Notes under the pieces: generated by a model
Databases searched by the model: none
Told to the model about the DNA's origin: nothing
What the model saw: only the letters and a program-made list of their open reading frames with translations
In this document: piece after piece, positions 9,063 through 15,861 of the stretch
Layout: each line of letters starts with the position of its first letter
How positions within the stretch are numbered: the stretch's first letter is position 1
Position numbers and translations under genes: made by a program
From: a virus
DNA length: 23,214 bases
Reading direction: 5' to 3' (one strand)
Virus record (IMG/VR): IMGVR_UViG_3300024520_000510
Span: 1 to 23,214 of that record

Positions 9063-10607
9063 ATGGCAATAACACCAAAGACAGAAGGTGCGATTGATGC
9101 GCCAAATACATTAACACCAGAAAGCGCGGGCAGCGTAGCGGTTCCTAATACACTTGCACCAGAAAGCGCCGGTTCGGTTGCTGCGCCTAACACCCTAGCG
9201 GCCGAAAGCGCGGGCAGCGTTTCCGCACCCAACACGCTAACGGCCGAGAGCGCAGGTTCTGTATCTGTTCCGAATACCCTAACATCCGAAAGCGCTGGAA
9301 GTGTAGCAGTTCCGAATACCCTCACGCCAGCATCGGCAGCGGTTTTGCCTAGAGCGCTCACGCCCACAGTTGATATAAACTATGCATCTGGTTTGTTTGC
9401 TCAAAATGGCTCGCCCGTGACTGAATCAAGCTTGATCACATTTGCGCGCGCCTCAACTGCCACTTTCATAAGCAGGCAGGTTGGCGTAACAGGGCGCTAT
9501 GAATATTTCCTAGATACAGCCTTAAGCGGCGTGCAGCGAATCGAATATGACGCGGCAACGGGTGAATGTTTGGGCGCATTGATTGAGCAGGGGAGTACTA
9601 ATTTGTGCTTAAGGTCTGAAGAGTTTGATAACGCAAGCTGGAATAAAGTAAGCGTTACAATCGAAGATAACTCAACAACCGCGCCAGATAATGCGGCAAG
9701 CGCGGATAAGGCGGTTGCAAGTTCTACCTCGTCTTTATCGCTTAGGATGTATCAAGATATCACCAGCACAGCTACATCCAGCTATACTATTAGCTCATTT
9801 GTAAAACGAGCGGAGTCGTCTGTTATACAGATTTGGTTTGAAGACGGGCATGTTGCAAATGACCCGCGTGTGAATTTTGATCTTTCTGTAGGGGTAATAT
9901 CCGCACAAGATGCAGATATTCTTGACGCGTCAATAACGCCTGTTGGCGGGGGCTGGTTTAGGGTTACGGCTTCAATCGTGGCTGTTGGTACTTTATTGCG
10001 CCCTATTTTACAAATTGCCAGTACTACAACTGAGCTAAGAGGCGCGTCTTCCGCTTGGGCGGCAGACGAAGGGCTTTATATCTGGGGCGCTCAAGTGGAG
10101 CAGGCACCTATTCCTACAAGCTACATTCCAACTACTACGACGGCAGTTAGTCGGTTGGCTGATCAGGCTTCAATGCCGGTGGCGGGCAATGTACCAAGCG
10201 GCGATATGACAACGATGGTAGATATAGTAGCGAAAGGTGATAGCGGGGCAGCAAGAAATATTTATTTTTCTGACGCTTCAAGTCTTGCTATCTTTGCTCA
10301 AGTAGCTGCTGCAAACTCTATTTCAATTGCTAAGGGTGGAACTGGCGCGCAGGTAGTTTCCGGCGGGGCGAGACCTGATAGTGTAAAATTATCGGCTGTT
10401 TTTGATTCTTTTGAAAACGAGATCAGCGGTTATTTAGATGGGGCGCTAACAGTGACTCAATACGCTGGTGCAATTAATATACCAGATACTGGCGGGGTAG
10501 TGGGTATAGGGAACAGTAAAGTTCTAACAAACCAGCTCAACGGCCATATAAAGCGATTCACAATCTACGATGCTGCATTGACAGCAACTGAAGTGTCAGA
10601 GCTATGA
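9063..10607 (+). CDS. Tail-associated fibre protein with repeat stalk and lectin-like domains
   Basis: 514 aa. Residues 14-97 are six tandem 14-residue units of the form PNTLxxESAGSVxx (the last degenerate), probably a fibrous stalk. After this come NYASGLFAQNGSPVTESSLITFARASTATF and ALIEQGSTNLCLRSEEFDNASWNK, a pattern common in phage structural proteins with jelly-roll carbohydrate-binding modules (strands ~190-350, ending GLYIWGAQVEQAPIPTSYIPT). The C-terminal third resembles a concanavalin/LamG-type sandwich (ISGYLDGALTVTQYAG...IKRFTIYDAALTATEVSEL). Position between tape measure and distal tail genes suggests a tail-tip or head decoration that binds cell-surface sugar. The sugar is unknown. 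GGGAG stands 9 bases before the ATG. Confidence 0.75.
   Translation: MAITPKTEGAIDAPNTLTPESAGSVAVPNTLAPESAGSVAAPNTLAAESAGSVSAPNTLTAESAGSVSVPNTLTSESAGSVAVPNTLTPASAAVLPRALTPTVDINYASGLFAQNGSPVTESSLITFARASTATFISRQVGVTGRYEYFLDTALSGVQRIEYDAATGECLGALIEQGSTNLCLRSEEFDNASWNKVSVTIEDNSTTAPDNAASADKAVASSTSSLSLRMYQDITSTATSSYTISSFVKRAESSVIQIWFEDGHVANDPRVNFDLSVGVISAQDADILDASITPVGGGWFRVTASIVAVGTLLRPILQIASTTTELRGASSAWAADEGLYIWGAQVEQAPIPTSYIPTTTTAVSRLADQASMPVAGNVPSGDMTTMVDIVAKGDSGAARNIYFSDASSLAIFAQVAAANSISIAKGGTGAQVVSGGARPDSVKLSAVFDSFENEISGYLDGALTVTQYAGAINIPDTGGVVGIGNSKVLTNQLNGHIKRFTIYDAALTATEVSEL
9102..9353 (+). repeat. Tandem 42-base coding repeat, six units
   Basis: Units begin at 9102, 9144, 9186, 9228, 9270 and 9312, an exact 42-base period. 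The peptide core PNTL-ESAGSV is kept in the first five while third-codon positions differ between units (for example AATACATTA, AATACACTT, AACACCCTA, AACACGCTA). The sixth is degenerate. The protein repeat is therefore kept by selection rather than by recent duplication. Confidence 0.9.
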
Positions 10608-11409: not shown

Positions 11410-13942
11410 CAGCCAGAAGAATAAATTTGATAAAGAGCACTTTTATATTGTAGAGCTTGAGCTTGATTCGTGCCCGCTTGATCATGGTTCGAATCCCTGT
11501 ACGGCTACAGAGACAGGGGATGACAAATGTTTCAACACATTTGAGACGTGCAACGATCTACCTAATTATAAGCCGACAAGAACGAGCGAAGGTTATAGTA
11601 TACGATTTGTCTGTGTCGGCCCGTTAGACTTTTCATACTACGAACTTCAATCTGGTTCGGGTGTTACTTGGCAGGACCTAGGTTTTTTAGATGATACGAA
11701 TACTAATTATAGAGTTAAGGGTGTCGGTTTTGCTAACCCTATAGCCAACTTGGAGCGGGGGGTGTCGATAGGTGGCACAGCTACAAAGTTATACACATAT
11801 TGCGCAGAGCCAGCCTTCACAACCAGTTACTCTATAGATCATATTATTACTCAAACAACGGGCAGAACTTATAGATTCTGCGAACCTAGAAGCCCGCACC
11901 CAATAGCGGTACACCCGCACACCTTCGATGCAATACCTTCGCTGAAATCGGTATCATTAACGCCTTCAAAGATAGATGTAGCGGGTGGGCTTGGTGAGCG
12001 CTCAAGCGTGTCTCTAGTATTTAATGATCACACGCATAATGATGTAGGTCATAAAATATTTGGAGACGGCACAGATATTGATAGATATATTTCTGATAGA
12101 ACTTATATAGCTACTGATCGCGGCACATTCTGGACAAAGCTGAGAGCTAGAAATCCGAATTATCAGTTTAGAGCATTAAGGATTCTAACAGGGTATTTAA
12201 AGAACGGAGAGTATGAGCCGTCAAACTTTAAGACGCGAAACTATATCATTGAGAAAATGGACGTTGGCGGCGGCACATGCAGGATCACCGCTAAAGACCC
12301 TCTTAAAAAAGCCAGTTCAAAAAAGGCTCAAGTACCAAAGCCCAATAGCGGGACGATAAATGATTCAGGCGGCATTAACGCAACTGCCACATCGTTAACG
12401 CTTACTCCAACGGGAGTTGGCGATGATGAGTATGAAACAAGCGGATATGTCGCGCTGGGTGGCTCAGAGATAGCCAGCTTCACACGCATTAGCGACACGT
12501 TAACGCTGGTCAGAGCTCAATATAACACGACAGCCAAAGAGCATGATCAATATACAGTTGTACAGCAATGCTATCAGAAGCAAGCAGAAGTAAATGTCAT
12601 CGCGCGTGACGTCCTAGTAAATTTCGCTGACTTCGACCCTGATTTCATTAATGATACAGCATGGCAAGCGGAGGTAGATACAACCAGTTTAAATGGTAAT
12701 TTAGACGGAATAATTCCTAAGCCCACGGATGTTGAAAAGGTATTGAAAGAACTGGCTGAAGCAAAGCCGCACTTTATTTACTGGGATGAGCTGAATCAGC
12801 AGGCTAGATTTACGGCCTTGAAAGAGCCCCCCGAAGATGCTAACGAGTTTGACATGGATAGCAACTTGATTAAAGGTTCCGTCAATTTTCGCGATTTGCC
12901 AGAGATGCGAGCGTCAACTATTTATTTTACGTTTGGACAGATTGACCCGACAAAAAGCTTAACTGACTTTAGTAATTTCACGCAAACGATTGTCCGAACT
13001 GACACAGATTCAGTATTAAAGTACGGTTCAAATCAGATTAAGAATATAACTTCACGGTGGATACCTTCAACTAATTTAGCAATAGCTGAAGATGCGGCGC
13101 AGGTTCTTGGGCGCAGACTGTCAAATATACCGCGTGAAGTATCGTTTTCAGTGGACGTAAAAGATAATGATTTAAACCTGGGCGACACCAAAAAAATAAG
13201 TCATCGCGATACGGTAGACGCTACAGGGTCTCCACTAGGTGTCATCTATCAAATAATAAGCAAGCAAGAGTCAGGAAACTTTAATTATAAAGGTGTTGAG
13301 TATACGTTTGGCGCAGTTATGCCAGCCGATAATTTATTAACAGACGATACAATTTACATATCAATAAACGAGCAGAACCTTAACTTATATGATAGATATG
13401 TAGCGCTTATCGGCAGCGCTCCAACAGCAAGTACAGACGCGGTTTATAAGGTTCGTGCTGGCGTTGTTGTTGGATCTGCTACAACTGGCGGCTACGCTGT
13501 CGATACAGGCACTGGCTGGCCCTCTGGCGCAACGATCACGCTTATAAACGAAGGTCATATAGTTGGTGCGGGTGGCGCAGGCGGCAGTCAAGCAGACCGA
13601 GACGGCCAGAGCGGAGGAGACGCCATGAATTTACAGTTCGACCTAGCGCTGAATAACTTAAATATCATTGGCGGCGGCGGAGGTGGTGCGCCTTATTTGA
13701 ATGGCGGCGGCGGTGCGGGTAATACTGGCGGAGTATCCGCCGCAGGGTCTGACGGAGGCTTAGAAATCGGCGGTGACGGTGGCGGCGGGTTTCCATCTCT
13801 AAAAGGTGGGGATTTGGGAGAAAGCGGCCCAGATGATGCGCCTAACTCAAGGTACGGCGGTGCGGCTGGTGCGGCTATAAACAAGAACGGCAATACACTG
13901 ACATACACTTATGAAGGTGATATAAGAGGCTCAGTATCGTGA
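11399..13942 (+). CDS. Tail hub/tip protein with Cys cluster and C-terminal polyglycine adhesin-like domain
   Basis: 847 aa. The N-terminus holds C25-x8-C34-x9-C44-x6-C51 (CPLDHGSNPC...DDKCFNTFETC), followed by NDLPNYKPT, a pattern seen in hub-type tail proteins and reminiscent of the iron-sulfur site of lambda gpL. Residues ~150-680 are beta-rich hub sequence (LKSVSLTPSKIDVAGGLGERSSVSLVFNDHT; KTRNYIIEKMD; VEKVLKELAEAKPHFIYWDE). From ~680 a module begins that is common at the ends of phage central tail proteins (VRAGVVVGSATT...TGWPSGATITLINEG). Residues ~717-847 are then glycine-rich with GGGGGG runs, like polyglycine-II sandwich receptor-binding domains (T-even gp38 type). It is expected to bind the host receptor. 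SD GAGG stands 6 bases upstream. Confidence 0.82.
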   Translation: MTYDSQKNKFDKEHFYIVELELDSCPLDHGSNPCTATETGDDKCFNTFETCNDLPNYKPTRTSEGYSIRFVCVGPLDFSYYELQSGSGVTWQDLGFLDDTNTNYRVKGVGFANPIANLERGVSIGGTATKLYTYCAEPAFTTSYSIDHIITQTTGRTYRFCEPRSPHPIAVHPHTFDAIPSLKSVSLTPSKIDVAGGLGERSSVSLVFNDHTHNDVGHKIFGDGTDIDRYISDRTYIATDRGTFWTKLRARNPNYQFRALRILTGYLKNGEYEPSNFKTRNYIIEKMDVGGGTCRITAKDPLKKASSKKAQVPKPNSGTINDSGGINATATSLTLTPTGVGDDEYETSGYVALGGSEIASFTRISDTLTLVRAQYNTTAKEHDQYTVVQQCYQKQAEVNVIARDVLVNFADFDPDFINDTAWQAEVDTTSLNGNLDGIIPKPTDVEKVLKELAEAKPHFIYWDELNQQARFTALKEPPEDANEFDMDSNLIKGSVNFRDLPEMRASTIYFTFGQIDPTKSLTDFSNFTQTIVRTDTDSVLKYGSNQIKNITSRWIPSTNLAIAEDAAQVLGRRLSNIPREVSFSVDVKDNDLNLGDTKKISHRDTVDATGSPLGVIYQIISKQESGNFNYKGVEYTFGAVMPADNLLTDDTIYISINEQNLNLYDRYVALIGSAPTASTDAVYKVRAGVVVGSATTGGYAVDTGTGWPSGATITLINEGHIVGAGGAGGSQADRDGQSGGDAMNLQFDLALNNLNIIGGGGGGAPYLNGGGGAGNTGGVSAAGSDGGLEIGGDGGGGFPSLKGGDLGESGPDDAPNSRYGGAAGAAINKNGNTLTYTYEGDIRGSVS

Positions 13943-14304
13943 TGTATTTCAAACCTAGTGAATTTAGCTGCAAATGTGGAGCTTGCGCAATGGGATTAAA
14001 AGACATGAATCCGTTACTCGTTCAGCGGTTAGATTTAGCTAGAGCCATAGCTAAAACGCCGTTTACCATTAATAGTGCGCTACGCTGCAAGCGCCACAAC
14101 AGGAAAGTGGGCGGGATAGAAAACTCTGCACACATGAGTGGGCATGCAGTCGATATAGCGTGCACAGATTTAAACAAGCGGTTTATTATAATAGATGCGC
14201 TAATTCGAGTCGGTTTTAATAGAATTGGAATATATGATACATTTATTCATGTAGACAATGACGAAACAAAAACGGCGCGGGTTGTGTGGATTGATGGCGG
14301 TTGA
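13942..14304 (+). CDS. Zinc peptidoglycan peptidase, M15 family (endolysin-type)
   Basis: 120 aa. The M15 metal site is complete: SAHMSGHAVD supplies His64 and Asp71, FIHVD supplies His103, and NSALRCKRHNRKVGG precedes them as in M15_3 members. It probably cuts the peptide stems of peptidoglycan. No signal peptide is seen, so it would need the holin-like protein encoded next. The N-terminus (EFSCKCGAC) is the usual opening and may hold a second metal-binding or structural Cys pair. ATG 13942 overlaps the hub stop (TGATG). GTG 13939, 9 bases after AAGAGG, is an equally good start adding one Met. Small size and position fit lysis; tail-associated cell-wall opening is an alternative. Confidence 0.85.
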   Translation: MYFKPSEFSCKCGACAMGLKDMNPLLVQRLDLARAIAKTPFTINSALRCKRHNRKVGGIENSAHMSGHAVDIACTDLNKRFIIIDALIRVGFNRIGIYDTFIHVDNDETKTARVVWIDGG

Positions 14305-14578
14305 AGTTGCTTTAGTTTCATTGATCGGCTCGGGGATATCTTTAATAGAGCCGAAAGAAACAACATTTAAAATCAAAGCCAGAAGATTAAGCGCGGGCTT
14401 TTTCCTGGCGTTCTTTGCGGGCCAAGATGTTGCGGCTTTAATACAGCATTTTCTAAACTTTAATGTAAGTGAAGGTGCGACTGTTTTCTTTACGGCCTAT
14501 ATAGGCTCAACTTTTCTTGATCGTGTTATAGTGTTGATCAATGCAGTTAGCATAAAGCGCACTTGGGGCAAAAAATGA
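14294..14578 (+). CDS. Holin-like membrane protein (three hydrophobic segments)
   Basis: 94 aa from ATG 14294, overlapping the peptidase stop by 11 bases. Hydrophobic segments lie at ~1-18 (VEVALVSLIGSGISLI), 32-55 (LSAGFFLAFFAGQDVAALIQHF) and 62-85 (ATVFFTAYIGSTFLDRVIVLINAV). The tail is basic (SIKRTWGKK). Size, three segments and position after a cytoplasmic peptidase gene fit a class I holin that opens the inner membrane. An upstream ATG at 14258 would add 12 mostly polar residues and overlap the peptidase by 47 bases, so it is less likely. No sequence family is recognised. Confidence 0.65.
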   Translation: MAVEVALVSLIGSGISLIEPKETTFKIKARRLSAGFFLAFFAGQDVAALIQHFLNFNVSEGATVFFTAYIGSTFLDRVIVLINAVSIKRTWGKK

Positions 14579-15027
14579 CTTTGTTTGATGTACTTGATGC
14601 GGGTATAACCGCTTTGGTGGTAGTTTTGGCTTTTAGGTTTTGGAAGAAGCATATACATAGGCCGCGTGTTTGGGTTATAGATGATTCTGAAATGGATTTA
14701 TCGTTATTCAAACTGAACATAAAGCTGGATGATTGCGACATTAGATACTTCACGAAGGCCGATAACATCATTAACGAATACATTAAATCCATCCTCTGTT
14801 TCAACTCTCCAACTTGCGTAGTTGTCGATTACTATTTAAGCTCAAATATCAAAGGTGACGAAGTTTTGAACCACTTTAGAGCAAACGGAGTACCCGCTGT
14901 AGTTGTCACTGGGCATGATGGTGATATATCGGGAATAGCAAAGCGTGATATCATTCACAAAACGCCTGATCCAGATTATTTTAGACAGGTGGAATATTGG
15001 GTAAACACAAAAACGGGGAAAGCATGA
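14575..15027 (+). CDS. Membrane-anchored response-regulator receiver-domain protein
   Basis: 150 aa from ATG 14575, overlapping the holin-like stop (ATGA). Residues ~5-22 are one hydrophobic segment followed by the basic RFWKKHIHRPR, which predicts the N-terminus outside and the rest in the cytoplasm. Residues 31-145 form a receiver (CheY-like) domain: the acidic pair Asp36-Asp37 in VWVIDDSEMD, the phospho-acceptor Asp85 in CVVVDYYLSS followed by GDEVLNHFR, Thr112 in AVVVTGHDG, and Lys129 in IIHKTP. All key residues are kept, so phosphorylation by a host histidine kinase or small phosphodonor is plausible. There is no DNA-binding or output domain. The ORF can be extended to TTG 14563, but ATG 14575 has a nearby GGGG and the coupled overlap. 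Its role in lysis timing is inference. Confidence 0.82.
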   Translation: MTLFDVLDAGITALVVVLAFRFWKKHIHRPRVWVIDDSEMDLSLFKLNIKLDDCDIRYFTKADNIINEYIKSILCFNSPTCVVVDYYLSSNIKGDEVLNHFRANGVPAVVVTGHDGDISGIAKRDIIHKTPDPDYFRQVEYWVNTKTGKA

Positions 15028-15476
15028 AAAATTTATTTATAGCATTAATCGCAGTGATAACTATATCTGGTTGCTCAGCACTTGAAACGCTGGGTGATTA
15101 CGTTAACGAAAATCAGCTTTTCGCAGACATAGCGACACGGCAAGCGGTGGGTCGATATATTGCGGCAGGTGACACGATAGAAGCCGAAAAGTCTAGAGCG
15201 CTGCAAGTTGAAACGCGGCTAGAAAGAATCCTCAGATATGTTGACGGAAACCCTAGTGCAACAACTGGGGGGCTCATGTCGATTATTGAAAAATCTATAG
15301 ATTGGGGTGAGCTTGAACCGGCCGATAGATTGCTAGTAACTGATATTCTGACACTATTAAATAAAGAGCTTGATCAATACGAGGGTGGGCCGAAACTGAG
15401 CGATACGGCACAAATAGCTATTCGAGGTTTATTTGAAACTGCCATGAGTGCGGCCCGCGTTTATCTCTTGAGGTGA
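15024..15476 (+). CDS. Lipoprotein in the lysis region
   Basis: 150 aa from ATG 15024 (ATGA overlap with the receiver gene; GGGGA 5-6 bases upstream). MKNLFIALIAVITISGC is a lipoprotein signal peptide with lipobox ISGC and lipidated Cys17. The mature part is helical (LFADIATRQAVGRYIAAGDTIEAEKSRALQVETRLERILRYV...) with no C-terminal membrane segment, so it is not a unimolecular spanin. It is longer than most outer spanin subunits and no inner subunit is evident nearby. It could be an outer-membrane lysis factor or a moron protein. The family is not recognised. Confidence 0.75.
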   Translation: MKNLFIALIAVITISGCSALETLGDYVNENQLFADIATRQAVGRYIAAGDTIEAEKSRALQVETRLERILRYVDGNPSATTGGLMSIIEKSIDWGELEPADRLLVTDILTLLNKELDQYEGGPKLSDTAQIAIRGLFETAMSAARVYLLR

Positions 15477-15480
15477 TATT

Positions 15481-15861
15481 ATGCCATTTATGAATAAAGC
15501 CATTATGGAGCCATACAGTGACGAACGGTGGCGAATGATTGAGGATTTCGACTACTTGACGGAAGATGATAGATTTATCCGTATTCCGCATGGCTTTGTT
15601 CACGATCTGGCTTCAATTCCGCGTGTGTTTCGATTGTTCTTTTCAGTTAATGGGAGGCATCGAGAAGCGGCCATTCTTCATGATTGGCTATACCACAATC
15701 AAGGCTTGGTTAGTGAATTCAAAAGATTCACGCGCGCAGAAAGTGACAAGCTGTTTTTAGAGGCGATGAAATCGAGTGGCGTGGGTTATTTTAAACGTCA
15801 CTCAATGTATTGGGGTGTCAGAGTTGGAGGTTTTATAGCGTGGAGCTCAAAAAATGATTAA
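15481..15861 (+). CDS. DUF1353 family protein
   Basis: 126 aa. Family pattern: FIRIPHGFVHDLASIPRVFR (positions ~33-52), REAAILHDWLYHN, the helix RAESDKLFLEAMKSSGV and MYWGVRVGGFIAW at the end. DUF1353 proteins are frequent near phage lysis and tail genes; the function is not established to my knowledge. The conserved His/Asp residues in FVHDLASIPR and ILHDWLY could form a catalytic or metal site. SD GAGGTGA stands 4 bases before the ATG. It overlaps the next gene by 8 bases. Confidence 0.82.
   Translation: MPFMNKAIMEPYSDERWRMIEDFDYLTEDDRFIRIPHGFVHDLASIPRVFRLFFSVNGRHREAAILHDWLYHNQGLVSEFKRFTRAESDKLFLEAMKSSGVGYFKRHSMYWGVRVGGFIAWSSKND

Follow-up and report, generated by a model that had tools for sequence, protein, structure and literature searches.

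Why would a phage lysis cassette contain a gene for a response-regulator receiver domain, and what could such a domain do there? The timing of holin action is mainly seen as an internal clock that lysis-inhibition signals adjust in a few phages. A preliminary description of the marine phage record analyzed here (23,214 bases; "the window" below means this whole stretch) had proposed that a membrane-tethered receiver encoded among its lysis genes could tie lysis to a host two-component signal. We asked whether the protein is a receiver, whether its position recurs in other phages, and which role explains both best.

The receiver gene and its lysis cassette

The proposed lysis setting was supported (Table 1). 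The gene for the probable M15 endolysin comes first, and the genes for a small hydrophobic protein and a lipoprotein both overlap the receiver gene between them, through the ATGA overlaps reported earlier (14575-14578 with the preceding gene and 15024-15027 with the next). The label "holin-like" for the upstream gene, which has an alternative in-frame start at 14258, held only in part: hydropathy and position fit it, but the product matched no family in Pfam, PHROG, or NCBIfam, holin families included, and our search found no relatives of the gene. The lipoprotein weakly matched gp27 of Cobetia phage Carin1 (E 0.01), whose gene adjoins an amidase gene, and it also weakly matched the Cor superinfection-exclusion PHROG (E 0.0053, signal-peptide region only). 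The GC content of the receiver gene (0.393) is below that of the window (0.448) yet near that of its cassette neighbors, giving no clear sign of recent acquisition.

Table 1. Features of the lysis cassette, in window coordinates
Feature	Position	Strand	Details
M15 family peptidase, probable endolysin	13939..14304	+	GTG start; Pfam Peptidase_M15_3 E 1.5e-18; PHROG 894 endolysin E 4.4e-29
Small hydrophobic protein, holin-like by position	14294..14578	+	94 aa; up to three hydrophobic segments: 1-19, 32-50, 64-82
Membrane-anchored single receiver-domain protein	14575..15027	+	150 aa; ATG start, TGA stop; ATGA overlap at each end
Membrane helix	14578..14634	+	About residues 2-20; Kyte-Doolittle 2.04; basic residues next
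Receiver domain	14662..15024	+	Residues 30-150; D36/D37 acidic pair, D85 phospho-acceptor, T112, K129; probably shortened alpha4 region
Lipoprotein, possibly outer-membrane lysis component	15024..15476	+	Lipobox ITISGC; weak Carin1 gp27 match
DUF1353 protein, flanks cassette downstream	15481..15861	+	Pfam DUF1353 E 2.3e-28

Because the tail gene of the window is closest to those of phages of Idiomarinaceae, Alteromonas, and Pseudoalteromonas, its host is likely a member of the Alteromonadales. Searches with the same gene found no prophage relatives, and no cognate kinase for the receiver was seen within the window. In the tail region, the protein encoded at 9063-10607 starts with imperfect 42-base tandem repeats (9087-9326) that encode a repeated 14-residue unit (about PNTLTPESAGSVAV).

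A divergent but recognizable receiver

All five residues named in the preliminary description (D36, D37, D85, T112, and K129) are present in the window protein, and the motifs VWVIDD, VVVD, VVVTG, and HK lie within residues 30-150 at about receiver spacing. By itself, this pattern is suggestive but no proof and would be weak evidence, because 240 of 200,000 shuffles of the protein carried the same set at the same spacing. A check against Pfam Response_reg (PF00072) gave a match (E 0.001, 19.6 bits) that stayed under the curated cut-off of 30.2 bits, but other profiles supported receiver homology. The best curated family match was the FixJ receiver domain in NCBIfam (NF006900), covering residues 29-118 at E 8.6e-5, with 22 bits against a cut-off of 255 for that model. 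An HMM of nine other receivers, eight from Alteromonas phages and one from Stenotrophomonas phage Bhz63, was built without the window protein and scored it at E 1.5e-4 among 2,001 sequences; the best of 2,000 shuffles reached 0.11. Profile comparison with receivers by hhalign gave 3.4e-6, and the two best matches in a PDB sequence search were receivers. The agreement of FixJ, the receiver HMM, and the profile comparison points to a divergent but recognizable receiver.

The claimed absence of an output domain was borne out: Pfam gave no second domain, and specifically no C-terminal winged-helix DNA-binding domain of the PhoB/OmpR type, and only ~20 residues follow K129. The protein also matched no holin family in Pfam, PHROG, or NCBIfam, and a PADLOC search returned no match.

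Hydropathy indicated a single hydrophobic segment at about residues 2-20 with RFWKKHIHRPR directly after it. Because of these basic residues, the positive-inside rule would place the receiver on the cytoplasmic side of the membrane, as had been proposed. A single-sequence structure model was poor (mean pLDDT 46). A second model used an alignment with five receiver relatives, trimmed before alpha4 to avoid forcing the register, and showed at moderate confidence (mean pLDDT 65) an N-terminal helix (residues 3-27) followed by a receiver-like beta1-alpha1-beta2-alpha2-beta3-alpha3-beta4. All 50 PDB matches listed for this model were receiver domains or receiver-containing response regulators, and its best viral match was the V22 "hybrid kinase - response regulator," itself a lysis-region receiver. 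Because the alignment rows were themselves receivers, the modeled fold is supportive but not independent.

The description of the receiver as "complete" needs qualification. All five catalytic residues are there, but the second model had no confident structure at residues 114-150, from alpha4 onward. T112 and K129 are 17 residues apart in the alignment, compared with 20-22 in the phage receivers keeping both, so alpha4 is probably short. Still, the lysis cassette does encode a membrane-anchored receiver, if a divergent one. Searches of viral contigs, phage records, and bacterial genome contigs yielded no close homologue of the fused TM-receiver.

Receivers at the lysis genes of Alteromonas phages

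Alteromonas phages PB15 and XX1924, reached by synteny through the tail gene, each carry a "response regulator" gene at their lysis genes. The PB15 receiver precedes an M15 endolysin and a holin that closely matches the XX1924 holin, with near identity; the XX1924 receiver precedes a DUF5675-like protein and the three-TM holin. Starting from these two receivers, we recovered further Alteromonas phage receivers by similarity alone, ignoring position. In Foturvirus phages H4/4 and R8W, the order is holin, TM/coiled-coil protein, receiver, and in siphophages R9Y1-3 and metagenomic relatives L020 and L022, it is TM/coiled-coil protein, receiver, GH108 endolysin. PT15-A5 (Schitoviridae) and L054 have TM/coiled-coil protein, receiver, Rz-like spanin, two-TM protein, and endolysin, with a lipoprotein frame overlapping the end of the spanin gene in L054. 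PT11-V22 (Myoalterovirus) and L053 have amidase, TM/coiled-coil protein, receiver, Rz-like spanin, and hydrophobic protein. Because receivers found by similarity in unrelated phages adjoin holin, spanin, or endolysin genes, their recurrent placement supports a putative lysis-related role. DUF5675-like proteins near a receiver in three phages (L016:5027-5422, L017:6080-6487, and L014:2438-2836) may be an uncharacterized lysis or cell-wall component.

PT11-V19 is a weaker case. Its receiver lies after a TM/coiled-coil gene and convergent with a two-TM protein and a DUF5675 gene, and no lysis family was matched in this neighborhood. In this receiver (L016:3998-4450), the acidic pair remains, but the phospho-Asp (FIPASEKG), the Ser/Thr, and the Lys are gone; by these residues, it appears to be a natural pseudo-receiver. 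In all other receiver groups, the Asp pair, phospho-Asp, Ser/Thr, and Lys are kept at 20-30% identity.

The relatives' receivers contain no membrane helix, and each is encoded directly after a single-TM protein that has a long, coil-like helical part. In XX1924, this protein matches PHROG 937 "hemolysin" (E 1.2e-12), and the PB15 counterpart is near-identical. By the positive-inside rule, the coil would be cytoplasmic in H4/4, R9Y2, A5, and V22, where basic residues follow the TM. The window has no separate TM/coiled-coil gene, and its receiver bears its own TM in the same orientation. Taken together, fusion in the window phage and adjacency in the others suggest a membrane site of action for the receiver.

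How independent these placements are affects their weight. Receiver identities are about 48% for H4/4-R9Y2, 45% for V22-A5, and 62% for PB15-XX1924. The R9Y2 receiver scores 156 bits to H4/4 compared with 86 bits to the highest-scoring of the listed plasmid-borne bacterial receivers, so this pair, at least, appears to be a lineage of phages. V22 and A5 are reported to share a module through exchange (PMC10579305). Given this within-pair similarity and module exchange, we count three or four receiver groups, plus the window. Assuming a 5-20% chance per genome of placement within two genes of a lysis gene, a rough inference from gene counts, recurrent placement by chance is unlikely, at about 1e-2 to 1e-4, the figure varying with the number of groups taken to be independent, for the limited sample of receivers within reach of these searches.

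A custom HMM found no receiver in 14 tail-gene relatives, several of whose contigs end before the lysis region. Response_reg matched in 13 of 32 records, yet it missed the window's own divergent receiver, and absence in other records is therefore weak evidence. An alignment of seven receivers was too diverse for scanning, and a scan with the PB15/XX1924 receiver alignment found nothing.

Several candidates were set aside. The receiver of Stenotrophomonas phage Bhz63 belongs to a full-length response regulator with a neighboring kinase-like gene and is no lysis-cassette receiver. That kinase-like gene (L018:3702-4532), which follows the response regulator, encodes VTGVQTCALPI, a stretch that we take to be a translated sequencing-adapter artifact, and the two-component genes of this record may be contamination. 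Many other "phage" matches (Listeria, Acinetobacter MD-2021a, Staphylococcus Kay, and fecal contigs) appear to be bacterial DNA within phage records, judging from record names, lengths, and annotation, and were left uncounted. As a side observation, in Pseudomonas phage Komp_PAO1_1 (L019:2911-3615), an unannotated frame opposite an annotated hypothetical gene scores as a receiver (E about 5e-16).

Known systems and earlier annotations

Like the window's receiver, those of H4/4, R8W, R9Y1-3, PT15-A5, PT11-V22, PT11-V19, PB15, and XX1924 are output-less, lie at or in lysis genes, and stand beside a membrane protein gene. By contrast, they follow a separate TM/coiled-coil gene, whereas the window protein is self-anchored and about 20-25% identical to them. 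With CheY and other single-domain response regulators, it shares the five catalytic residues, the lack of an output domain, and probably the receiver fold signature; unlike CheY, it is membrane-anchored, has a probably shortened alpha4 region, and sits in a phage lysis setting with no cognate kinase in the window. It also differs from FixJ in having no DNA-binding domain.

Published descriptions class the R8W gene as PhoB and as an auxiliary metabolic gene (PMC8228385), the V22 gene as a class II AMG (PMC7289586), and the A5 gene as CheY-like and belonging to a host-recognition module (PMC10579305). The genes of H4/4 (L010:3983-4444) and R8W (L012:3983-4444) are annotated "putative DNA-binding response regulator," but the PhoB or DNA-binding label is unsupported: in Pfam, both 153-aa proteins have a receiver domain only and no DNA-binding domain. 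Neither these three papers nor other openly licensed papers that we found link such receivers to lysis. The preliminary description had known of no lysis cassette with this arrangement. Receivers at these positions were in fact already annotated in Alteromonas phages, as PhoB, CheY-like, or AMG and not as lysis genes. What is new, then, is the occurrence of stand-alone receivers in or beside the lysis genes of several Alteromonas phage families, an arrangement undescribed as such in the papers found.

The pinholin gp63 of phage N4 has a "Receiver domain," a cytoplasmic, membrane-proximal region proposed to receive a lysis-inhibition signal (PMC12642591). Because this region was defined by mutations and two-component signaling goes unmentioned in that paper, the shared word does not mean homology with the window receiver. 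Still, it shows that holins with a cytoplasmic input are being seriously considered.

Possible roles and implications

The reading that we tentatively favor, though we put it somewhat short of an even chance, is that the protein acts at the membrane to regulate lysis timing and that host phosphoryl donors determine its state. Co-made with the holin-like protein and the lipoprotein, the output-less, tethered receiver would sit beside the holin and control lysis from the cytoplasmic side of the inner membrane. Host histidine kinases or small phosphodonors would phosphorylate D85 and so set the receiver's conformation, which would speed or delay holin triggering. In the other Alteromonas phages, a separate soluble receiver would probably dock on the membrane/coiled-coil protein of the preceding gene, the counterpart of the anchor fused to the receiver in the window phage. 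The sequences themselves show the domain, its residues, the anchor, the gene order, and the recurrence in unrelated phages; we infer membrane docking in the relatives, phosphorylation, holin contact, and the effect on timing. Against this reading stand the upstream gene without a holin family match, the V19 loss, the lack of a fused homologue, and the 14 tail-gene relatives without a receiver, several of them on contigs that end before the lysis region. A bolder version, in which unrelated phages of one host group repeatedly placed a receiver at the holin, coupling lysis timing to host kinase signaling so that the environment sensed by the host sets lysis, and the window protein is a one-piece phospho-regulated antiholin, seems doubtful to us.

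Retention of the catalytic residues in all groups but V19 favors the phospho-switch originally proposed, but phosphorylation appears dispensable in V19. Because that receiver lost the phospho-Asp, Ser/Thr, and Lys, a phospho-switch cannot explain all lineages; either the V19 receiver is now a locked form, or the core function of the fold is binding. The receiver fold could instead be a phosphorylation-independent dimerizing or docking domain for a holin or antiholin, with catalytic residues largely inherited. V19, which retains the gene and its partner without a phospho-site, is consistent with this, as is the reduced look of the alpha4-beta5-alpha5 side of the window protein, but the five catalytic residues persist in all other groups despite low identity, and we regard the idea as quite unlikely.

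Another alternative, which we judge unlikely, takes the receiver as a decoy or modulator of host signaling that, late in infection, would block a host histidine kinase or draw off its phosphoryl groups, for example, in an envelope-stress or phosphate system, with the cassette giving only late expression and membrane proximity. An intact phospho-site without an output domain fits a sink, an anchor would bring the receiver near membrane kinases, and relatives were published as auxiliary metabolic genes or PhoB (PMC8228385, PMC7289586, PMC10579305). However, expression just before lysis is a poor moment for host reprogramming, the recurrent direct partner is a membrane/coiled-coil gene among lysis genes, and V19 has no phospho-site. 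The least probable of these explanations is a cargo gene unlinked to lysis, serving superinfection exclusion, anti-defense, or another purpose in a late-gene insertion hotspot. The tail-fiber/lysis junction is a common site for extra genes, and the weak Cor match of the lipoprotein would fit such cargo. The CheY-like gene also belongs to a module exchanged among phages V22, A5, and P24 (PMC10579305). Yet the window's receiver gene overlaps both neighbors, separate receiver groups occupy the same setting, and the protein gave no PADLOC match.

These observations correct the published readings of such receivers as PhoB or generic auxiliary metabolic genes, and the link between receiver and lysis is testable in the cultured phages R8W, H4/4, R9Y1-3, PT15-A5, PT11-V22, and PB15. 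With a receiver recurring at the lysis genes, the holin clock would take host two-component signals as a direct input.
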